Origin: Gammaproteobacteria bacterium
GTDB lineage: Bacteria > Pseudomonadota > Gammaproteobacteria > SZUA-229
Assembly: GCA_029881795.1 (NCBI GenBank)
Contig: JAOULX010000005.1
Location: 1-64,000 of the forward strand
Reading direction: 5' to 3'
Length of the DNA stretch: 64,000 nt
Shown: positions 40,912-53,336 of the stretch, piece by piece
How positions within the stretch are numbered: the first letter of the stretch is position 1
Layout: the number at the start of each line of letters is the position of its first letter
Position numbers and translations under genes: made by a program
The notes under the pieces: model-generated
Databases searched by the model: none
What the model was told of the DNA's origin: nothing
Seen by the model: only the letters and a program-made list of their open reading frames with translations

Positions 40912-42708
40912 TTAGCTCGCCAGATATTGTCGCCAGCCACCCAGCGCTGTAATTTCTCGGGCAGCTTCTGCTGCATAGCCTTCACAAATAAAGCCCGGTA
41001 ACCAGCGACCATCTTCTGTTTCAACCTTACCAATACCCAGAGGCGCCGGAATACCTGCAACAAAACTACCGAACTCGGCTTTTGGCACAGACCATATTTC
41101 AATATCGATACGGCTGCCATTTTCACTGTCCCTGATCATACCCGGTCGCTCGATCGCACCGTCAATCACAAACATTCGGTAGGCGGCGGATGATGTTGTT
41201 TTTTCTACAAAGACCGCACCGCGTTCTTTCAACTGCCAATTAAGTGCCAGTCCGTCAAGATGCGCACCACAAACAATCACTGGCAAGGTATCAGAAAAAC
41301 TGACGACAGCGGCGCTGGTCGCTGCCAGCGGTAGCTGCAGATTACCCGGTGATAGCTGATTATGCTGCTGCCATTTATTAGCAAATGACAAAAGTTTACG
41401 ATCACTCATCGCCAGACTCACCAGGCTGATTCCCCAAGGCAGTCCATTATCAAGAAAACCAGCCGGCACAGCGACCGCTGCACAGTCCAGTAAATTCATA
41501 AAGTTGGTGTAATAACCCATGTCACTGTTCTTTTTAATCGGCTCGGCATTGACTTCATCTATTGTATAAATAGTGCCGGCAGTGGGCGTCATCATAAAGT
41601 CAAAGCCAGCCAATAACTGTTTTGCACTGGCACGGTAACTCTGCATTTTATATTCCGCTTTAAACGCATCGGCAGCTGTCTTGTTTTCACCGCTGCCAAT
41701 AATGGTGTTGATAACCGGTAATAATTCCTCTGGGTGGTTGCTAATTAATTCCTCAATCGCAACATAACGCTCTGTCACCCACGGACCTTGGTAAAGCAAA
41801 ATAGCCGCTTCTAAAAAAATACTGAAATCAATCTCTTCCTTAATACCACCAAGCGCCTGCATTTTTTCTACACTTTTTTGAAACAGTTGCTGAGCTGAAT
41901 CATCGCCAAAGAACTCAAGCTGCTCGGCTCTTGGCACTGCAAAAGTAAAGGCATCATCGGCTAAGCCGTATTGACGCTGATTGTTGTCATACGAAACAGC
42001 TCGCGCATACTGATCGTTAACATCATAAACTGCCGCCTGCTCAAGTACCTTATTTGCATCATCAGTTGTCAGCGCAAAAATACTGACACAATCAAGACTA
42101 CGACAGGCCGGTAAAACACCTGTCATACTCAGCAATCCTTTTGACGGCTTTAATCCGATCAGGTTATTAAACGCTGCCGGCACGCGTCCTGAACCGGCGG
42201 TATCGGTACCCAGAGAAAAACTCGCCAATCCAAGCGCAACCGACACTGAGGAACCGGAACTTGAACCACCGGAAATATAATCTTTATTAAATGAGTTTTT
42301 ACAGGCTCCCCATGGCTCTGGCGAGCGCACACCAACCAAACCTGTTGCAAACTGATCAAGATTTGTTTTACCAATAGGAATAGCACCGGCATTAATCAAT
42401 TGCTGTACCACAAATGCCGATTGCTCCGGTACATGACTGAATGCAGGACAGGCTGCTGTTGTTGCAACACCGGCAAGATTAATATTATCTTTAATGGCAA
42501 ACGGTATGCCATACAACGGTAAATCATCAATGTTTTTAAGCTCAAGTTTTTTCAGATACGGTTCAATTTCCTGCAAACTTAACTGGTGAATCCAGATATT
42601 ATGATCCGTAAACTGATGACTTCGCGTTATAATGTCGGCAACCAACTGACGCGGTGTCAGGGTGTTATTTTTATAGGCCTGATGCAAATGGGCAATATTC
42701 AAATTCAT
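40912..42708 (-). CDS. atzF: Allophanate hydrolase
   Basis: Hydrolyses allophanate to ammonia and CO2, the last step of ATP-dependent guanidine or urea breakdown. The 598-residue protein has an amidase-signature domain (about residues 1-430). Its catalytic Ser/Lys region is YISGGSSSGSSVSVALG, with IPFAIKDNINLAG upstream. The C-terminal ~130-residue AtzF/gamma-glutamylcyclotransferase-like domain (VIVCGAHLDGLALN to PGFICEGYAAEAA) is complete. It is two bases beyond the carboxylase stop, so the pair is co-translated. Confidence 0.95.
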   Translation of the reverse strand: MNLNIAHLHQAYKNNTLTPRQLVADIITRSHQFTDHNIWIHQLSLQEIEPYLKKLELKNIDDLPLYGIPFAIKDNINLAGVATTAACPAFSHVPEQSAFVVQQLINAGAIPIGKTNLDQFATGLVGVRSPEPWGACKNSFNKDYISGGSSSGSSVSVALGLASFSLGTDTAGSGRVPAAFNNLIGLKPSKGLLSMTGVLPACRSLDCVSIFALTTDDANKVLEQAAVYDVNDQYARAVSYDNNQRQYGLADDAFTFAVPRAEQLEFFGDDSAQQLFQKSVEKMQALGGIKEEIDFSIFLEAAILLYQGPWVTERYVAIEELISNHPEELLPVINTIIGSGENKTAADAFKAEYKMQSYRASAKQLLAGFDFMMTPTAGTIYTIDEVNAEPIKKNSDMGYYTNFMNLLDCAAVAVPAGFLDNGLPWGISLVSLAMSDRKLLSFANKWQQHNQLSPGNLQLPLAATSAAVVSFSDTLPVIVCGAHLDGLALNWQLKERGAVFVEKTTSSAAYRMFVIDGAIERPGMIRDSENGSRIDIEIWSVPKAEFGSFVAGIPAPLGIGKVETEDGRWLPGFICEGYAAEAAREITALGGWRQYLAS

Positions 42709-42710
42709 TT

Positions 42711-45700
42711 TTAATTCTCTTGTAAAATTAATAACGGCTGTCCGGCATTAACCTGACTGCCTTCATCGCGCTTGACAGCAAAGACGGTACCTGCATGCGG
42801 TGAGGTAATTTCAATTTCCATTTTCATCGACTCAACAATAACCACTGCCTGTCCTTCTGCTACCGCATCACCCGGCTTTACCAGCATTTTCCAGACATTA
42901 CCGGCAACGGGACTCTCAATCGCCAGGCAATTTTCCGGCAATTCATTTTCCTCAGGCTGATCATTTGCCATACCCTGACCGGAATCAAAATTAATCTGTC
43001 CTGATTCAATCCAACGCTGCAACTCTTCATCAAATGCTTTTTCACGCCGCTCTGTAAATGACTGAATACTGCTTTCATTTTCCAACAAAGATGCTTGATA
43101 CGCTTTCAAATTAAAACGCGTATCTTCAATTTTTAAACCGTAACGTCCTTTGGGAAAGTCATAGCGAATTTGTATAAGCTCTTCAGCGCTGACTTCATAA
43201 AATCTGATCTGATCAAAAAAGCGTAATAACCAGGGCTGAGTGAATTCTTTTGTTTTGTTGTAGCGATTCCACATTTGCAAAGTACGTCCGACAAACTGAT
43301 AACCTCCCGGACCTTCCATGCCATAGACGCACATATACGAACCACCAATTCCCACTGAGTTCTCAGCCGTCCAGGTTCTGGCAGGATTGTATTTGGTTGT
43401 GACCAGACGATGCCGGGGATCCATTGGTGTAGCCACCGGAGCACCGAGATATACATCACCCAGACCCATCACCAGATAACTGGCATCAAATACAATCTCT
43501 TTAACCTGTTGAATACTATCGAGACCGTTAATCCGGCGAATAAATTCAATATTACTCGGACACCACGGTGCATCGTGTCGCACCGACTGCATGTATTTCT
43601 CAATCGCCTGACGACAGGCATCATCATCCCAGCTCAGTGGTATATGAACAACACGAGCCGGCACATCAAGATCTTCAATACCTTCCAGTGCCGCAATCGC
43701 TTGATCAATAACAGCCATCAAGTCATCCACTGATATTACCTGACTATCATAATGTAGCTGCAGCGAACGAATACCCGGTGTTAATTCAAGCACACCTTTA
43801 TAATCTGATTTTTGCAGACTTAGCATCAACGCGTGCACACGAAACCGTAGTTCGATATCCAACACCTGTTCACCAAACTCAACCAACAGAAATTTATCGC
43901 CGCAAGGCCGGTAAACTACCTGGCAACCGTGTTCTTCCTGTTCGATGAGTTTTAGAACTGGCGTAACTGCCGGCTCGGCTTTAACTATTTTCTGAATATG
44001 TTCCAGTCTGCTAATGGATTCAAGCTGTGCTTTTTCTAATGCCACCGCATCACTGATACTAACCGGAATAAATTTTACTTTATCACCGGCTTTAAGCTGT
44101 CCCAGCTTCCACAGATCGGCTGTAATGACAGTGGCCGGACAAACAAAACCGCCCAAAGACGGACCATCCGGGCCAAGTATCACCGGCATGTCGCCGGTAA
44201 AATCAACCGTACCAAAAGCATAAGCGTTATCGTGAATATTGGATGGATGCATACCGGCTTCGCCACCATCACTTCTTGCCCACTGCGGTTTAGGCCCTAT
44301 CAGACGAACACCGGTACGGCTTGAGTTGTAATGAATCTCCCAGCTTGTATCAAAAAAAGTTTTAATATCCGTGTCGGTAAAAAAGTCCGGTGACCCATGC
44401 GGCCCATAGATCACTCTCAATTCCCAGTTATTATGAATCTCTGGCAGTAGTTCTGCCGGCAGCTTATTTTTTGCCGTGATTTCTTTTAACGGATTAAAAT
44501 GCAGCACATCACCAACCCGAAGAGCACGACCGGCATGGCCGCCAAACTGACCCAGTGTAAAGGTTGATTTTGAACCGAGATAATCAGGACAGTTAAAGCC
44601 TTCTTTTACACATAAATAGGCGCGCGCACCGGCAGACTGTGTTTTACCAATTTTAAGTGTTTGCCCGGCTTTAATATCCACCACTTGCCAGAATGAAACA
44701 GCAACATCATCAAGATGTGCATCCATCGCTGCACCGGCCAGTACAATTTGAGTATCGTTATTAAAACGCAACACCGGACCATTCAGCGTTATTTCAAGAC
44801 CCGCTGCTGTATCCGTATTATTCAGTAATCGATTAGCCAGATTAAATGAGTAAGCATCAAACGGCCCGGACGGTGGCACGCCAACATTCCAGTACCCACT
44901 GCGTGCCGGGTAATCCTGAATCGTGGTTAAGGTACCAGCACTAATCACGTCTATCGAACAAGGTCTGGTAACAAAATCATTAAGATAACGGGTGAAAATC
45001 TCACCTTTCTTAAAAATATCTGTGTCCAGAATTTCAGCAACGTAATCAATATTCGTTTCGATGCCATACAGACTTGTTTCCAATAGTGCCTGACGTAACT
45101 GAGAGACAGCTGTTTCTCGATCATTGGCAGTAACCACAATTTTTGCAAGCATCGGATCAAATAGCGGCGAAACCTCTATACCAGTTACAAGCCAGTGATC
45201 AATTCGTAAATGCTCAGCCACTGGAAAGTTAACTTCGCTCAGTAGACCGGCACTCGGTTGAAAATCTTTGTTCGGGTCTTCTGCATAAACACGCGCCTGA
45301 ATCGCATGACCAGATAATTTTAATCCGGCTGCAAGCTCGTCAAGATCCACAAGTTCATTACTTGCCTGTTTCACCATCCATTCAACAAGATCTACATTAA
45401 ATACTTGCTCGGTAACACCGTGCTCAACCTGCAATCGGGTATTGACTTCAAGAAAGTAAAACTGATCTGTTTTCTGATCATAAACAAATTCCACTGTACC
45501 CGCGTTACGGTAATTAACAGCCTCTACTAATCGCACAGCAGTCTGATGTAATTCTTTTCTTATTGCATCGCTAAGGTTGGGCGCAGGGGTTTCTTCAATG
45601 ACTTTCTGATTACGGCGCTGGGTAGAACAATCGCGCTCACCTATTGAAATCGCTTTACCCTGACCATCACCGAAAACCTGTACTTCAATATGACGAGCGT

Positions 45701-46310
45701 ATTCAATAAACTTTTCAATAAACACACCGCTATTTGAAAAATTATTTTCACCCATGCGACGAACTGAATCATAAGATTTTTCAAGCTCATCTCTGTTCCA
45801 GCACAGTTGCATGCCGATACCACCGCCCCCGGCTGTGCTTTTCAGCATCACAGGATAACCAATTTCATCAGCTGATTTGACTGCACCAGCTATGTCGTCA
45901 AGCAGATCAGTCCCTGGTAAAAGCGGAATATTATTATCTTCAGCCAGCTGACGCGCAGTATGTTTAAGACCAAACGATTTCATTTGATCTGTTGTAGGTC
46001 CAATAAAGGTAATACCGTTTTCTTCACAACGTGCTACAAAACCAGGATTCTCACTGAGAAAACCATAACCAGGATGCACGGCATCTGCGCCACTTTGTTT
46101 TATAATTTCAAAAATTTTATCCTGATTTAGGTAGGTATCAGAAGCCCGACCTTTTCCCAACGAGTAGCTTTCATCAGCATTTTGTACGTGTAATGAATCT
46201 GCATCTGCATCGTTATAGATTGCAACTGACTGGCAGTGCATATTTTTCAGGGTGCGGATAATTCGATTAGCGATCGCACCGCGGTTCGCAATCAGTATTT
46301 TTTTAACCAT
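42711..46310 (-). CDS. Guanidine carboxylase (urea carboxylase family)
   Basis: Biotin-dependent carboxylase of 1199 residues. The biotin carboxylase domain (about 1-450) has the ATP-grasp loop KSTAGGGGIGMQ and EVNTRLQVEHGVTE. The carboxyltransferase region (about 465-1010) is made of AHS2- and AHS1-like parts. The C-terminal biotinyl domain has VESMKMEIEI with the biotin Lys. The start at MVKKILIANRGAIA is supported because the 26 residues ahead of it in the longer ORF are encoded by a guanidine-II riboswitch. That riboswitch and the DUF1989 pair next door indicate guanidine rather than urea as substrate; urea side activity is possible. Confidence 0.93.
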   Translation of the reverse strand: MVKKILIANRGAIANRIIRTLKNMHCQSVAIYNDADADSLHVQNADESYSLGKGRASDTYLNQDKIFEIIKQSGADAVHPGYGFLSENPGFVARCEENGITFIGPTTDQMKSFGLKHTARQLAEDNNIPLLPGTDLLDDIAGAVKSADEIGYPVMLKSTAGGGGIGMQLCWNRDELEKSYDSVRRMGENNFSNSGVFIEKFIEYARHIEVQVFGDGQGKAISIGERDCSTQRRNQKVIEETPAPNLSDAIRKELHQTAVRLVEAVNYRNAGTVEFVYDQKTDQFYFLEVNTRLQVEHGVTEQVFNVDLVEWMVKQASNELVDLDELAAGLKLSGHAIQARVYAEDPNKDFQPSAGLLSEVNFPVAEHLRIDHWLVTGIEVSPLFDPMLAKIVVTANDRETAVSQLRQALLETSLYGIETNIDYVAEILDTDIFKKGEIFTRYLNDFVTRPCSIDVISAGTLTTIQDYPARSGYWNVGVPPSGPFDAYSFNLANRLLNNTDTAAGLEITLNGPVLRFNNDTQIVLAGAAMDAHLDDVAVSFWQVVDIKAGQTLKIGKTQSAGARAYLCVKEGFNCPDYLGSKSTFTLGQFGGHAGRALRVGDVLHFNPLKEITAKNKLPAELLPEIHNNWELRVIYGPHGSPDFFTDTDIKTFFDTSWEIHYNSSRTGVRLIGPKPQWARSDGGEAGMHPSNIHDNAYAFGTVDFTGDMPVILGPDGPSLGGFVCPATVITADLWKLGQLKAGDKVKFIPVSISDAVALEKAQLESISRLEHIQKIVKAEPAVTPVLKLIEQEEHGCQVVYRPCGDKFLLVEFGEQVLDIELRFRVHALMLSLQKSDYKGVLELTPGIRSLQLHYDSQVISVDDLMAVIDQAIAALEGIEDLDVPARVVHIPLSWDDDACRQAIEKYMQSVRHDAPWCPSNIEFIRRINGLDSIQQVKEIVFDASYLVMGLGDVYLGAPVATPMDPRHRLVTTKYNPARTWTAENSVGIGGSYMCVYGMEGPGGYQFVGRTLQMWNRYNKTKEFTQPWLLRFFDQIRFYEVSAEELIQIRYDFPKGRYGLKIEDTRFNLKAYQASLLENESSIQSFTERREKAFDEELQRWIESGQINFDSGQGMANDQPEENELPENCLAIESPVAGNVWKMLVKPGDAVAEGQAVVIVESMKMEIEITSPHAGTVFAVKRDEGSQVNAGQPLLILQEN

Positions 46311-46329
46311 AATATTTTCATCGGGTCCT

Positions 46330-46371
46330 GCAGGCCGTCCTGCTGTTAAATATTTCAGCGGGTCGTCCCGC
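46330..46371 (-). promoter_or_regulatory. Guanidine-II (mini-ykkC) riboswitch
   Basis: On the minus strand there are two hairpins with ACGR tetraloops. The first is GCGGG-ACGA-CCCGC (46371 to 46358) and the second GCAGG-ACGG-CCTGC (46343 to 46330). A 14-base AU-rich linker joins them. Five-base stems, ACGR loops and paired hairpins are the diagnostic features of the guanidine-II class. It ends 19 bases before the carboxylase start, where guanidine binding would free the ribosome-binding region. AGGACCCG right after P2 could pair with the CGGG of P1 in the unbound state (inference). Confidence 0.88.
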
Positions 46372-46405
46372 CGTATCATTTTTATCATTTACACAGCGGC
46401 TTTAC

Positions 46406-47044
46406 CTAATCCCAGATCAGAACCTCAATCGGCGTAGGATTGTAACCATTGCAGGGATTATTTAACTGAGGACAATTCGAGATCAACACAATCGTATCCA
46501 TCAAGGTTTTCATCTCGACATATTTTCCTGAACCAGAAATACCATCTTCAAAAGTCAGGCCGCCCTCTTTTGTAACTGGCACATTCATAAAAAAATTAAT
46601 ATTGTGGGTAATATCTCTTTTTGTTAGACCGAACTCTTCATGCTCAGATACTGCCAGCATCCAGCTGTCACGACAGGCGTGCATACATTGTTTATCCAAA
46701 GCATAACGAACCGTATTACTTTCAGTCGCACAGGCACCACCTAGAGTGTCATGGCGCCCACAGGTGTCAGACACAATTTCCAGCATTACATTGCCTTCAT
46801 TTGAAATCAGTTTTGTTCCTGCCGTTAAATACACATTACCTTGTTCACGAATAGTATCCATTGCGCTGTAACGCTCTGCTGTATTATCGGCATTATAAAA
46901 AAGCGTATCGGCAGCCTGATTACCTTCCAGATCCAGTATTCGGATGGTCTGACCTTTCTTAACCACATCAATGTAATAATCACCTGCAGCAACCAGCTCA
47001 CGTGAAACAGCCTGATCAGCTGTTAACAGACTTTCTTTAATCAT
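46406..47044 (-). CDS. DUF1989 protein, carboxyguanidine deiminase subunit-like (UAAP2 type)
   Basis: A 212-residue member of the 'urea carboxylase-associated protein' family. DUF1989 segments include [36 protein letters not shown] and [11 protein letters not shown], with conserved Cys and His that may bind metal. In characterised guanidine pathways, paired DUF1989 proteins (CgdA/CgdB) deiminate carboxyguanidine to allophanate plus ammonia. The start at MIKESLL gives an eight-base overlap with the partner gene; longer starts would overlap it by up to 119 bases. Confidence 0.85.
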
Positions 47045-47822
47045 GTGAACAGTCCTGGCTAGCAGCATTGTTATGCGGGCAGGCACCTGCATGATAAATT
47101 TTGTTATTTTCAAAACCGCGGCGATTTTCAGGTCGGAAATTTTTACAGAAATCATCGTCTGCTACTTCTGCAGACTGAACAATCTGATAACGAATAGCTT
47201 TACGCGGATATTCTGACGCAGGATTAAGCGGATGAGGGCAGGTATGAAATATCACCAGTGTATCCATCTCGAATCGAAGCTCAATCGAGTCACCGGCCTT
47301 GCTGTTATTTTCTTTAAACTGCAAATTACCCATATCATCGACACTAACCGAACTAAACAGATTCAAATTAGCGGCCATATCTTTTTTACCCAGCCCATAT
47401 TTAGCCAGCTCAACCAGAAAGCTGTCATAGCCATTCTGATTCCATCCATTATGATAATCCTGGTAAGTTTTCTCACCCCACTTTTTTTTAACAATATTTT
47501 TTGTACTATTGCCACAGATTGTTTCATGCCAGCCTATGCTGTCATCGGTAATTGAGCAAAAAACACGGCCCATGTCTGAATACAAACAGTTGCCTTTTTT
47601 CAGATTAAAAGTGTGCTGACATTTTAGCGTGTCGGGTGCGTTATATCGCTCCAACAAATTTTCAGGATTGAAAAATAGCATACCAACATTTGCTCCACCT
47701 TCTTCATCAATCAGTTTCAACACCGTACCTTTTCGCATTCTGATTGACCAGTGACTGGCCGCTTCAATACGACTCTCGTATATAACCGTACCAGGGGCTG
47801 CTTCTAATAACGCCATTGTCAT
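47037..47822 (-). CDS. DUF1989 protein, carboxyguanidine deiminase subunit-like (UAAP1 type)
   Basis: A 261-residue paralogue of the preceding protein. Shared DUF1989 features are [49 protein letters not shown] and [10 protein letters not shown]. It is expected to form a heteromeric carboxyguanidine deiminase with its neighbour, between the carboxylase and allophanate hydrolase steps. Translational overlap of the two genes supports a fixed-ratio complex. Confidence 0.85.
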
Positions 47823-47872: not shown

Positions 47873-48352
47873 TCAGTTAATACTGTATTTTTCTTTTCTG
47901 TTTTTTCCATGCTCAGGCAATGGGTGAACCTGTGGCAGTAAAGCTGCTGATAATTGCAGACTTGCGTTAATTACTCCGCGACAGGCTTCCATCTTTTCAG
48001 CAATGATTTTCAGCTTTGCAGCAGGTCCCTGAACCAGAATCACCTCCATGGCTTTATCCTGCATTAAGTACACATGTAATGAGCTAATCACTTCATCGAT
48101 ATACTGATGTTGCAAGTCAGTCAGTTGTTTTTGCAGGCCGGGTGTTGAATGGTCATAGACCAGGTTAATAGTCCCGGCCATTATTTCTTCCCCAAAGCCA
48201 CATCGATGCTCTGTAATTTGATGCTGTATCATGCTGGCAAGTGCCTGCGACCTGCTTTCAAAACCACGCTGCTCGACAAGAATATCCATATCTCTGAGTA
48301 ACTGCTCAGATAATGAAATACTGATACGGCTGACTCCTTGCTTCACTGTCAT
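47873..48352 (-). CDS. NikR-like ribbon-helix-helix regulator lacking two nickel ligands
   Basis: A 159-residue regulator. The N-terminal RHH domain (SRISISLSEQLLRDMDILV) and the C-terminal ACT-like domain match NikR. By position, the NikR nickel ligands His76, His87, His89 and Cys95 correspond here to His82, His93, Tyr95 and Ala101, so only two remain. It therefore probably does not sense nickel the usual way. It lies inside the guanidine operon and shares its start base with the ABC ATPase stop. A role as a ligand-responsive regulator of this pathway is inference. Confidence 0.85.
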   Translation of the reverse strand: MTVKQGVSRISISLSEQLLRDMDILVEQRGFESRSQALASMIQHQITEHRCGFGEEIMAGTINLVYDHSTPGLQKQLTDLQHQYIDEVISSLHVYLMQDKAMEVILVQGPAAKLKIIAEKMEACRGVINASLQLSAALLPQVHPLPEHGKNRKEKYSIN

Positions 48353-49266
48353 CAGAAAACGCTCTCAACTTCACTATCGACGCGTACCATACGCACCATA
48401 TTTAAGTTATCTTCCTTTATTCCAGTATCTTCTACCGGCGGGTGAATTAGTTCTTCAAGACGTTTTCTTGTTGCCAGAAACTCCGGGTTCAATAACTGAT
48501 CCGGTGAACGCGGATGTGGCACTGGCACTTCAATCACTTCCTGAACCTCACCGGGGTTGGCTTTTAGTACAAGCACACGGTCAGCTAAATAAACCGCCTC
48601 ATCAAGATCGTGAGTGATAAATAAAATAGTCACATCAATATTTTTCCAGATCTCATGCAGGTAACTTTGCATCTTAGATCGAGTCTGTGCATCCAGTGCC
48701 CCAAACGGCTCGTCCATTAACAAAATCCGTGGTTGATTTGCCAATGCTCGTGCGATTGCGACACGCTGTTTCATACCGCCTGATAGTTGATGAGGATAAG
48801 ATTTTGCAAATTTACTAAGCCCAACGAGATCTATCCACTGAAACGCCTGCTCTTCACAGCTAGCTTTACTGTGACCTGACATCTCAAGACCAAACATGAC
48901 GTTATCTTTAACAGTCAGCCATGGGAACAATGTATAACCCTGAAAAACCATACCGCGATCAGGCCCAGGCCCGCTAAACGTTTCTCCATCAAGCAACACA
49001 TCGCCAGAACTATGTGTTTCAAGACCAGCCAGAATTCGTATCAGCGTTGACTTGCCGCAACCTGATGGACCTATCACGCAAACAAATTCACGTTTGTAGG
49101 TTTCAAAATTAATATTTTTTAAGGCCGTAACTTTTCCCTGTGGTGTATCAAACTCCTTACACAGATTCTTAACCTGCAACGTCACTGGACGCTTCTTCAT
49201 ACGATTAAATCGGTCTTTCACCATATCGCTTTGATCGAGATAACTGGGCAATTCAAGATGATTCAT
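48352..49266 (-). CDS. ABC transporter ATP-binding protein (nitrate/sulfonate type)
   Basis: A 304-residue ATPase of the importer. Walker A is GPSGCGKST, the signature LSGGMKQRV, Walker [13 protein letters not shown], and the H-loop [10 protein letters not shown]. It has a ~30-residue N-terminal and ~45-residue C-terminal extension beyond the core, as is usual in urea-carboxylase-linked transporters. Expected substrate is guanidine. Confidence 0.93.
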
Positions 49267-49324: not shown

Positions 49325-50293
49325 TCAGGCCTGCGCCTGATTTTTTTCCCAGGGAAAAATTCTGCGTCCAGCTGCTGCCAGTATTAAATCTGTCGTAAGA
49401 CCGATAATGCCGATGATAATAATGGCAGCAAACACATTATCGAAATTTTTATAACGCGCCTGTTGCGTAATAAACCAGGTAATACCTGAACTCGTACCGA
49501 TCAGCTCCGCTACTATCAGGTAAGTCCATGCCCAGCCCAACAGCAGTCGCAAATCTTTATACAAATGAGTAATAATGCCGGGCACAACAACCCTGAACAA
49601 AAGTGAAATCCGTTTTGCTCCCAGCGTCATAGCAGCTTCCAGTAATGCAGGATCCAGCTTACGTGTCGTATTGGATATCACCAGCACCTGTTGAAAGAAA
49701 GTACCAATAAATATGATTGCTATCTTTGGTGCATCGTAAATACCAAGCACAGCGACAGCCAGCGCCCCAAATGCCGGAGCAGGAAGATACCGAAAAAACT
49801 CTATAAACGGTTCAAACAATTTTGCAAAAACATCATAAGTTCCGGCAAGTATGCCCAGCGGCACACCAAACAATGATGATATTAAAAAACCCCAGAAGAT
49901 AACCTGGATGCTATCCCACAAACTTTCATGCAACCATTTTTCATTTCGCCGTTTTGGTTCTGTAGTAAAAGCAGAAAACATAGCCGTTGCCACTTCATGT
50001 GGCGCAGGCAAGTAAACGGGGTTAGCCGGTACTCCCATTGGAATTGATTTTGAATTCTTTATCGCCGTTTCAACTTCCCTGTCGAACACTTCACGGTCAA
50101 TCAACAAGCCTTCTTTAAAATAACTGACATCTCCTGGCACAGATACTTCGACCTTTGGATGCCAGATAAATGGCACATAACTTATCAGACTCCAGATCAG
50201 CAACGGCAGAAAAAAACTGAATATTGAAAAAGCAATGCGTTCTTTAGCATCAAGTTTTTTACCTGCCGAAAACAATTTAGAAATTATCATCAT
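49325..50293 (-). CDS. ABC transporter permease (nitrate/sulfonate type)
   Basis: A 322-residue permease with a cytoplasmic N-terminal stretch, about six helices, and the EAA-type coupling loop (LDPALLEAAMTLGAKR). The long periplasmic loop between helices 1 and 2 (VSVPGDVSYFKEGL ... PAPHEVATAM) is characteristic of carboxylase-linked SsuC/NrtB-like permeases. Confidence 0.93.
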   Translation of the reverse strand: MMIISKLFSAGKKLDAKERIAFSIFSFFLPLLIWSLISYVPFIWHPKVEVSVPGDVSYFKEGLLIDREVFDREVETAIKNSKSIPMGVPANPVYLPAPHEVATAMFSAFTTEPKRRNEKWLHESLWDSIQVIFWGFLISSLFGVPLGILAGTYDVFAKLFEPFIEFFRYLPAPAFGALAVAVLGIYDAPKIAIIFIGTFFQQVLVISNTTRKLDPALLEAAMTLGAKRISLLFRVVVPGIITHLYKDLRLLLGWAWTYLIVAELIGTSSGITWFITQQARYKNFDNVFAAIIIIGIIGLTTDLILAAAGRRIFPWEKNQAQA

Positions 50294-50322: not shown

Positions 50323-51303
50323 TTACAAGCCTGATGTTAATGAAGGATCAATATAGGATTCCACATCTTGTGGTTTATCATAAACTTTATTCGCAATATT
50401 GAAATCATCTGAGATCTGAGTCGAACCATAAATTGATGTATATCCTTTTCCTTTCTTAAAGAATGACTTGGCTTCTTTCAATGTCAGAATTTTTGTTCCT
50501 TTTACAAACGATTTGTATTCGTCAGCTTTGAGCCCAACACGTGACGCCATAATCCTGATTGCATCATCAAAGGTAGCCGGGTTGTTGATATAATTAACAA
50601 TCCGATACCAGACTTTCATAACTTTTTTCCAGTCATCTTTACGTTTTGCATAGCTCTGTGGTGTAACCACATACATATCGTAAATAAGTCCTGGTTCGTC
50701 TTCACTGGTATAAATTGCTTTTGATCCTGGTACCTGTGTCAGCGCAATACCTGAACTTGGCTGCCAGGCAACAATCGCATCTACATCTCCCGATGCAAGC
50801 ACCTGTGGTGTTTCGTTAGTTGGCACATTCACCAGCTCCACATCAGTTTCATTCATGCCATTTTTTTCAAGTGCATTGAGTAATAACAGATGACTGACAA
50901 AACCAACTTCAACACCTATCTTTTTTCCTTTTAGCTGCTTAATAGAGCTGATACCTGGCTTAGCAATGATCATGTCATTGCCATTACTGTAATCATTCAT
51001 AAGAATCATCACGCCCTTACCACCGGTTGCCCCAGTCACCAGCGCATCACCATTCGTCATGCCGACACCATCAAGTTTACCGGCTGCAAAAGCATCCATT
51101 GATGCAACGTAATCAAACCATTCAAACTTTACGTCAACTCCTTCTTCTTTAAACCACTGTTTTTCTATTCCCACTTCCCAGGCAACCCAGCCAGGCCAAT
51201 CGCTATAACCTATCTTTAATGGTTCAGCCGACGTCATGCCGAATGCCCCCAACATGACAACAGCAGAAAGTGATTTTGCAAATGTTTTAACTATCTTCTT
51301 CAT
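50323..51303 (-). CDS. ABC transporter substrate-binding protein, guanidine/urea type
   Basis: A 326-residue periplasmic binding protein of the NMT1/SsuA-like fold. The start MKKIVKTF gives a signal peptide cut after MTSAE. The [15 protein letters not shown] segment near the mature N terminus is diagnostic for the carboxylase-linked family. It is the first gene of the operon, about 40 bases downstream of the predicted sigma-54 transcription start. Confidence 0.92.
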
Positions 51304-51352
51304 TATGAGCCCCATAAGTATTACTAAAACCAAAATTAGTAATACTCACTAT

Positions 51353-51368
51353 TGCAATCCGTATGCCA
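51353..51368 (-). promoter_or_regulatory. Sigma-54 promoter for the guanidine operon
   Basis: On the minus strand TGGCATACGGATTGCA matches TGGCACG-N4-TTGCW, with GG and GC at the exact 12-base -24/-12 spacing. It lies 50 bases before the start of the binding-protein gene. Confidence 0.75.
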
Positions 51369-51439: not shown

Positions 51440-51456
51440 CGCACAATAACAGTGCA
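51440..51456. promoter_or_regulatory. NtrC-like enhancer site
   Basis: CGCACAATAACAGTGCA contains GCAC-N7-GTGC, the core of the NtrC consensus (TGCACC-N5-GGTGCA). It lies about 80 bases from each of the two flanking -24 elements. Confidence 0.6.
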
Positions 51457-51575: not shown

Positions 51576-52415
51576 ATGCAGTTACAGTTATTTAAAACCC
51601 TGTGGGGACATCAGGGCTCAATTCACGAAGCGATCAAGCAGACACTTGCCGCAGGTATGCACGGCATCGAAGCCGCCGCACCCGACAATCCAGTACAGCA
51701 GCAGGCCATGCTGGAATTACTAGAAAGTTCCGGGCTCTCTTATATTGCCGAAATTACCACTGCTGGTAGTTACGTACCTGACCGACGGGCCAGCCTTCAG
51801 CAACATCTGGATTCTCTTGAAAGAAAACTGTCATACAGCGCTCCATTCAGACCTTTATTTGCCAACTGCCTAGGCGGCTGTGACGCCTGGCCGGAACAGA
51901 AAAGTCTGGAATTTTTTGATCGCGCTATCGCTCTTGCAAAGCAATATCATATAGAAATCAGCTTTGAAACCCACCGCAGTCGCTCGTTTTTTAACCCATG
52001 GGTAACTCAACGGATTTCCCAACAAATACCTGAGCTTTTGATAACAGCTGACTTCAGTCACTGGTGTGTGGTTTGTGAGCGACTAATGGACACCGAACTC
52101 GATGTTATTCATTCCATTGCTGATAAAATAAAACACATTCATGCCAGAGTTGGTTACGATCAGGGCCCGCAAGTACCGGACCCGCGAGCCGCTGAATACG
52201 AATACGCGCTGCGTGCTCACCAGCACTGGTGGCAGATTATCTGGCAATCACAAATTAATAGACAGTTTACGCATAGCACCATGACGCCTGAATTTGGTCC
52301 AGATGGTTATTTACATGAGCAACCATATACTCGTGAGCCAGTAGCTGATTTGTGGGAACTTAATTGCTGGATGGCAGCTGAGGAAAAGAGACATTTTGAA
52401 TTATTCAGACTCTAA
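51576..52415 (+). CDS. Sugar-phosphate isomerase/epimerase-like TIM-barrel protein
   Basis: A 279-residue xylose-isomerase-like TIM barrel. Candidate metal ligands are in SFETHRSRS (Glu), TADFSHWCV (Asp), HIHARVGYDQGPQVPDP (His) and MTPEFGPDGY (Glu). The ATG at 51576 was chosen because the upstream 23 codons overlap the sigma-54 promoter. Divergent from the guanidine operon and likely under the same nitrogen control, so it may act on a nitrogen-containing sugar or another nitrogen source; the substrate is unknown. Confidence 0.8.
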   Translation: MQLQLFKTLWGHQGSIHEAIKQTLAAGMHGIEAAAPDNPVQQQAMLELLESSGLSYIAEITTAGSYVPDRRASLQQHLDSLERKLSYSAPFRPLFANCLGGCDAWPEQKSLEFFDRAIALAKQYHIEISFETHRSRSFFNPWVTQRISQQIPELLITADFSHWCVVCERLMDTELDVIHSIADKIKHIHARVGYDQGPQVPDPRAAEYEYALRAHQHWWQIIWQSQINRQFTHSTMTPEFGPDGYLHEQPYTREPVADLWELNCWMAAEEKRHFELFRL

Positions 52416-52574: not shown

Positions 52575-53336
52575 ATGCCTAAAGAAATCACACCACAAAT
52601 AATCGCCTCATTCAAAACACAGCTGGAAAACCATCCGATTTATGAGGCTGTTGCCACTATTGAAGACCTGCAACAGTTTATGCAACACCATGTGTATTCA
52701 GTCTGGGATTTTATGTCACTGATTAAATACCTGCAGTCTGTCATCGCACCCACACAATACCCATGGACTCCTCAGGGCGACGGCAGTGTACGTCGCTTTA
52801 TCAATGAACTGGTGCTTGAAGAAGAGTCCGATGAAACAAATAACAGTGGTGAATATTCCAGTCATTTTGAGCTATACCATAAAGCCATGATTGAAATCGG
52901 TGCCGATATTTCCGTATCAACAGACTTTATCAACACCGTCAGAAACAAAGGTATCGACAGTGCATTGAAGATGGCTAGCATCCCGTCACCTTCTGCTGAG
53001 TTTACAGCAACTACGTTCGACTTTATCAATAACAATAAACCGCATCAGGTTGCCGCTGCCCTGTCACTCGGCCGTGAGCACATTATTCCCTGTATGTTCC
53101 GATCTATTCTGAAACGCACCGGTGTCACAGAAAAACAGGCGCCGATCTTTCACTATTACCTGAACCGACACATCGGACTTGATGAGGATTTCCATGCCCC
53201 CTTGTCGTTACGATTGCTGAATGAATTGTGTGATAATGATGATGTAAAAATTGAAGAAGCAATTGCCGCTGCAAACACCGCTGTCGTTGCCAGGGTCAAA
53301 TTCTGGGATGGCGTACTGGAAGCACTTAATCGTTAG
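52575..53336 (+). CDS. DUF3050 domain protein (haem-oxygenase-like fold)
   Basis: A 253-residue helical protein. HPIYEAVATIEDLQQFMQHHVYSVWDFM, then ELVLEEESDE, SHFELYHKAM and YLNRHIGLDEDFHAPL, match DUF3050. This family is predicted to share the haem-oxygenase-like fold, and its conserved Glu/His residues could bind two irons. The reaction is unknown. Monocistronic, with a hairpin after it. Confidence 0.85.
   Translation: MPKEITPQIIASFKTQLENHPIYEAVATIEDLQQFMQHHVYSVWDFMSLIKYLQSVIAPTQYPWTPQGDGSVRRFINELVLEEESDETNNSGEYSSHFELYHKAMIEIGADISVSTDFINTVRNKGIDSALKMASIPSPSAEFTATTFDFINNNKPHQVAAALSLGREHIIPCMFRSILKRTGVTEKQAPIFHYYLNRHIGLDEDFHAPLSLRLLNELCDNDDVKIEEAIAAANTAVVARVKFWDGVLEALNR

Follow-up and report, generated by a model that had tools for sequence, protein, structure and literature searches.

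Two short hairpins lying upstream of a gene annotated as a urea carboxylase (46330-46371, minus strand) raise the question of what this gene and its operon respond to, and by what means, in the 64-kb window (the whole 64,000-nucleotide stretch of DNA analyzed here). The reading that we favor, with a probability of about 0.93, is that these hairpins constitute a Guanidine-II aptamer within a guanidine-assimilation operon, and that they switch on the downstream gene (gca), and probably also the following gene (atzF), in the presence of guanidine or methylguanidine.

In order of transcription, the operon encodes a substrate-binding protein, a permease, an ATPase, a NikR-like regulator, cgdA, cgdB, Guanidine-II, gca and atzF, with Guanidine-II sitting in the 95-nt gap that separates cgdB from gca. 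A complete guanidine-assimilation pathway is thus contained in a single operon:

50323-51303, minus strand: ABC transporter substrate-binding protein, first gene of the operon
49325-50293, minus strand: ABC transporter permease
48352-49266, minus strand: ABC transporter ATPase
47873-48352, minus strand: NikR-like regulator, with His89 replaced by Tyr and Cys95 by Ala (NikR_C, 91.6 bits; PRK04460, 112 bits; 2bj1 alignment)
47037-47822, minus strand: cgdA, carboxyguanidine deiminase subunit (UAAP1, DUF1989; TIGR03425, 321 bits, over cut-off)
46406-47044, minus strand: cgdB, carboxyguanidine deiminase subunit (UAAP2, DUF1989; TIGR03424, 337 bits, over cut-off)
42711-46310, minus strand: gca, guanidine carboxylase (annotated as urea carboxylase family), 1199 aa, with D703 and D952 (TIGR02712, 1853 bits; 5i8i/3va7 alignment)
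40912-42708, minus strand: atzF, allophanate hydrolase (TIGR02713, 752 bits)

A gene for a DUF3050 protein (52575-53336, plus strand; 298 bits) is also found close to this operon.

The identity of the carboxylase was assessed on its full-length alignment with the K. lactis urea amidolyase (5i8i/3va7), in which D703 is aligned to N1330 of 5i8i, a position where Asn denotes a urea carboxylase, and D952, within a GLGD motif, is aligned to the GLGD of the K. lactis chain (position 1584). Aspartates at these two positions (1330 and 1584 in K. lactis) are the criteria for calling a guanidine carboxylase (PMC11410670), and their presence as D703 and D952 therefore supports guanidine, rather than urea, as the substrate of gca. 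The pathway accordingly runs from guanidine through carboxyguanidine and allophanate to ammonia and CO2.

The hairpins preceding gca are arranged as follows:

46358-46371, minus strand: Guanidine-II P1 hairpin, GCGGG-ACGA-CCCGC (sequence and Rfam alignment)
46344-46357, minus strand: 14-nt linker between P1 and P2, TGAAATATTTAACA (sequence)
46330-46343, minus strand: Guanidine-II P2 hairpin, GCAGG-ACGG-CCTGC (sequence and Rfam alignment)
46308-46310, minus strand: ATG start codon of gca, its position and the N-terminus conserved in L010, L011, L012 and most of 86 operons

The sequence-only reading had described these two hairpins, 14 nt apart and upstream of the gca start, and its description is exact to the base, on the minus strand. 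It had also proposed a run of the mini-ykkC covariance model, and Rfam cmscan on the 64-kb window returned a Guanidine-II (RF01068) match at 46330-46374 (minus strand) that covers the full model (1-48) with 35.2 bits, over the gathering score of 32. No other Rfam family reached its own cut-off in the window, weak miRNA matches in a permissive scan were dismissed as chance, and the element was also recovered in a whole-genome search. Both loops present the ACGR sequence and GG/CC loop-closing pairs; the P1 stem is extendable to 7 pairs and the P2 stem comprises 5 bp. The linker, at 14 nt, agrees with the observation that Guanidine-II linkers are mostly at least 13 nt long (PMC5486947).

In the published model for this class, the two loops kiss around two guanidinium ions and the RNA operates as a translational ON switch (PMC5486947, PMC9094411, PMC12186494). 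Based on this work, we infer that kissing of the P1 and P2 loops, with two guanidinium ions bound, would improve ribosome access to the gca start. The minimum-energy fold of the window sequence already holds both hairpins, with no alternative start-hiding structure predicted, and the accessibility of the start region is on average the same (0.42 and 0.43) when folding is performed with and without the hairpins enforced. An anti-Shine-Dalgarno segment in the linker has been put forward in the literature; across 56 operons, linker-to-RBS pairing was no stronger than with shuffled linkers (mean z 0.02), and in the window the linker can form a 7-bp A/U pairing with AAAATATT, immediately ahead of the ATG, at a cost of 3.7 kcal/mol relative to the minimum-energy fold. 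For this group, these results speak neither for nor against an anti-Shine-Dalgarno in the linker and, because the minimum-energy fold has both hairpins and linker complementarity stays at the level of shuffled sequences, we treat the expression platform as putative. P2 is separated from the gca ATG by 19 nt, a stretch with only an AGGA, approximately 15 nt from the ATG, which is poor spacing for a Shine-Dalgarno. Close behind this AGGA begins an out-of-frame, 9-codon mini-ORF (MKILWLKKY; 46292-46321, minus strand), which starts 11 nt before the gca ATG, overlaps it, and was seen in none of the near relatives.

These folding results bear on an alternative in which the Guanidine-II fold is real, but mainly senses methylguanidine or a different small compound of the guanidine type, or affects the stability of the mRNA or Rho-dependent termination within the operon instead of Shine-Dalgarno access. 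A route other than the Shine-Dalgarno is in line with the lack of a masking structure, and a different ligand is in line with a binding pocket that is open on one side (PMC5486947) and with the Guanidine-II of Vreelandella (Halomonas) boliviensis, which lies between cgdB and gca and bound guanidine (93 µM) and methylguanidine (83 µM) alike in in-line probing (PMC12508155). Nonetheless, the window operon has no mgdH/mgdL between gca and atzF, unlike that of V. boliviensis, and the literature proposes translational control for this class (PMC12186494). We regard this alternative as unlikely, though it deserves some weight, and retain a switch responsive to guanidine or methylguanidine, putatively translational, as the preferred reading. 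Given that a Guanidine-II in the same operon position elsewhere binds both compounds, we word its signal as guanidine or methylguanidine. The sequence-only reading had set guanidine as the real substrate signal; the gca aspartates support guanidine as the substrate.

The closest known systems share most of this architecture. As in the window, the V. boliviensis operon comprises an ABC transporter, cgdAB, gca and atzF, with Guanidine-II between cgdB and gca (PMC12508155). It differs in carrying mgdH/mgdL and a Guanidine-I at its start (PMC12508155), whereas the window operon presents a NikR-like gene between the ATPase gene and cgdA and its genome has no Guanidine-I. The Raoultella and Klebsiella guanidine operons likewise have the transporter and cgdAB in front and Guanidine-II before gca and atzF, but they are headed by Guanidine-I (PMC12186494), in contrast with the sigma-54-type promoter and NikR-operator-like repeat of the window. 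The location of Guanidine-II between cgdB and gca is therefore already published (PMC12186494, PMC12508155) and common, and the window switch is an ordinary riboswitch of a known class.

What sets the window operon apart is its head; the sequence-only reading mentioned neither the absent Guanidine-I nor the NikR-like gene. Canonical operons begin with Guanidine-I, which is present in 48 of the 50 genomes with related cgdB loci, a frequency that would favor conventional dual control with a Guanidine-I that was merely missed. However, searches with RF00442 found nothing at E up to 10 across the entire window genome (97.5% complete), nor at E up to 5 in the operon region, and Guanidine-I is equally absent from other genomes with a NikR-like gene in the cgd operon. 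A missed Guanidine-I is accordingly very improbable, and was ruled out on the genome-wide result. Guanidine-I was found above its cut-off in 48 of 49 genomes without an operon NikR-like gene and in none of the ten genomes with this gene inside the cgd operon (Fisher p = 1.8e-10, uncorrected for relatedness).

The NikR-like protein combines a ribbon-helix-helix N-terminus with a NikR_C domain (PF08753), the domains also found in E. coli NikR, and aligns over nearly its full length with P. horikoshii NikR (2bj1). The square-planar nickel site of NikR is formed by His76, His87, His89 and Cys95 (PMC7055735). The window protein retains the first two, whereas positions 89 and 95 are occupied by Tyr and Ala, leaving the nickel site incomplete, and every operon-linked relative lacks Cys95, often together with His89, His87 or His76. 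Apart from one protein at 40%, the operon-linked proteins fall into a group that shares 55-89% identity with the window regulator. The window regulator thus departs from E. coli NikR both in the absence of Cys95 and in residing in a guanidine operon, not beside nickel transport genes. Copies of the regulator are also encountered apart from cgd operons, either beside a type III glutamine synthetase gene and an ABC transporter (L037, L050) or at other genomic positions (G371, G372). The genomes with such copies do have Guanidine-I, and the regulator is thus a module that can become linked to guanidine genes. In several relatives, the ABC transporter and the NikR-like gene are separated by a type III glutamine synthetase gene that is missing from the window, and L033 additionally has a creatininase-family gene:

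L032:5819-7177, L033:6399-7757, L034:8719-10077, L037:6245-7603, L050:3078-4433: type III glutamine synthetase gene

Upstream of the first operon gene, three sequence elements were identified:

51441-51455, minus strand: NtrC-like site, GCAC-N7-GTGC
51354-51368, minus strand: sigma-54-type promoter TGGCATACGGATTGC, TGGCAT-N5-TTGC, with 1 mismatch to TGGCAC-N5-TTGC
51318-51345, minus strand: perfect inverted repeat GTATTAC-N14-GTAATAC, proposed operator of the NikR-like protein (sequence and recurrence in relatives)

The sigma-54 promoter consensus is TGGCAC-N5-TTGC, and the NtrC consensus is of the GCAC-N7-GTGC type. The repeat lies 14 nt before the start codon of the first operon gene, and it recurs before the same genes in eight loci besides the window. 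It is perfect in the window, L010, L011, L032, L034 (twice) and L050, perfect with its arms swapped in L037, and present in L036 with one mismatch and, arms swapped, in L033 with two. A search of 77 related loci (1.49 Mb) at 0-1 mismatch found no copy, and L094, L109 and L116, which share the transporter type but whose genomes have no NikR-like gene, likewise lack it. With at most 1 mismatch, a sigma-54-type sequence was found in 8 of 9 promoters, in each case 22-23 nt ahead of the repeat, compared to 21 of 2000 random 130-nt stretches. When relaxed to 6-nt arms with 1 mismatch, genome-wide counts of the repeat were at background in AT-rich genomes, and the analysis was therefore confined to promoter copies with 7-nt arms. 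Additional copies with 0-2 mismatches (L034:5338-5365, L034:8162-8189 and L033:8402-8429) precede cgdA and the gca riboswitch within two operons, as if there were one operator per transcription unit.

The E. coli NikR operator is GTATGA-N16-TCATAC (PMC7055735); written with 6-nt arms, the window repeat reads GTATTA-N16-TAATAC and matches it at 5 of 6 bases per arm and in the N16 spacing. This resemblance and the recurrence of the repeat suggest that the NikR-like protein may bind GTATTAC-N14-GTAATAC and control the operon. Since Guanidine-I, the head of canonical operons, is absent from the window genome, we infer that transcription of the whole operon would start upstream of the ABC transporter at the sigma-54-type promoter, gated by the NikR-like protein. 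More broadly, a NikR-family regulator devoid of the nickel site, acting at GTATTAC-N14-GTAATAC beside a sigma-54 promoter, may have replaced Guanidine-I at the operon head in this and several other gammaproteobacterial families, with Guanidine-II often staying in place and the C-terminal domain sensing guanidine, a related compound or nitrogen status, a proposal on which we put even odds.

The Guanidine-II element itself is widely conserved at its position. Two congeneric relatives (L010, L011) show the same gene order and the same switch, and in one relative from the same family (L012) the switch precedes gca. Scanning named genomes by cgdB yielded 80 loci, and the comparison comprised 86 operons, those in which both cgdB and the gca start were readable. 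Tandem ACGN hairpins occupy the cgdB-gca gap in 60 of these operons, including those of Neptuniibacter, Vibrio, Psychromonas, Marinomonas, Halomonas, Alcanivorax and Microbulbifer. Both loops read ACGR in 59 of the 60, and the linkers measure 12-24 nt in 58, most relatives falling within 12-20 nt. The loop-closing pairs are G-C, and the outer pairs vary with compensation, several Watson-Crick types being observed at P1 pairs 3-6 and P2 pairs 4-5. Together with the RF01068 score, the tandem hairpins and their compensated stems support the assignment to the mini-ykkC class made from the sequence alone. In L012 (1591-1638), an otherwise conserved Guanidine-II before gca has ACGC instead of ACGR in the P1 loop, which makes it a naturally occurring test of the final position in the loop.

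A chance or generic palindrome with no sensing role (a spacer repeat or a weak terminator) is scarcely credible and was ruled out by resampling and conservation: even though single ACGR hairpins of at least 5 bp are common (9 in the real window compared to about 5 per resampled window), tandem ACGR hairpins with stems of at least 5 bp, 5-40 nt apart, numbered 3 in 200 windows resampled with a first-order Markov model, the real window having exactly one pair, at 46330-46371, the Rfam score is above the cut-off, the same position bears hairpins with compensated changes in the 60 operons noted above, and no T-run follows the hairpins.

Conservation also bears on the start of gca. The longest gca ORF, from 46388, would place the Guanidine-II switch within the coding region, and the start at 46310 had been proposed instead from the position of the hairpins. 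In nearly all relatives with hairpins the gca start lies 11-24 nt downstream of P2, which supports the ATG at 46310, and relatives begin at the same M-x-K-(K/V)-x-LIANRG position directly after the switch.

The only other Guanidine-II in the genome (L003:6992-7038, corresponding to contig C7:66991-67037, minus strand; 41.5 bits) lies approximately 20 kb from the window copy and 3 kb past the window end. It directly precedes a membrane desaturase gene (PF00487), followed by genes for an MBL-fold hydrolase and an EamA transporter. Guanidine-II also precedes desaturase homologs in six other genomes from several families (G035, G039, G034, G401, G180 and G172), the G034 element scoring 30.8 bits, just below the cut-off, and in G293 (L155) the desaturase homolog is preceded by a Guanidine-I (75 bits) instead. 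Among 17 Guanidine-II sites in a class-wide sample, 9 are located before gca, 5 before an SMR-type small membrane protein and 3 before a desaturase. G172 presents the order glutamine synthetase, Guanidine-II, desaturase, TIM-barrel protein, Guanidine-I and cgdA, and its TIM-barrel protein is a homolog of the product of window gene 51576-52415. This xylose-isomerase-like gene (plus strand) is divergent from the window operon, as it is in L010 and L011, and in L161, L156 and Haliea salexigens (L108) its homologs are neighbors of genes homologous to the desaturase. No paper linking a guanidine riboswitch to a desaturase was found among open-licence PubMed Central papers, and the desaturase is apparently an undescribed, recurrent target of guanidine riboswitches. 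With its MBL-fold hydrolase or TIM-barrel partner, it may uncover a new step in the metabolism or tolerance of guanidine.

Taken together, the switch corrects the annotation of the gene that follows it: the "urea carboxylase" operon of this organism assimilates guanidine. The operon also offers a testable case in which the Guanidine-I layer of control has apparently been swapped for a protein of a metal-sensor family without the usual nickel site. If true, an RNA sensor would have been exchanged for a protein sensor in control of the same pathway.
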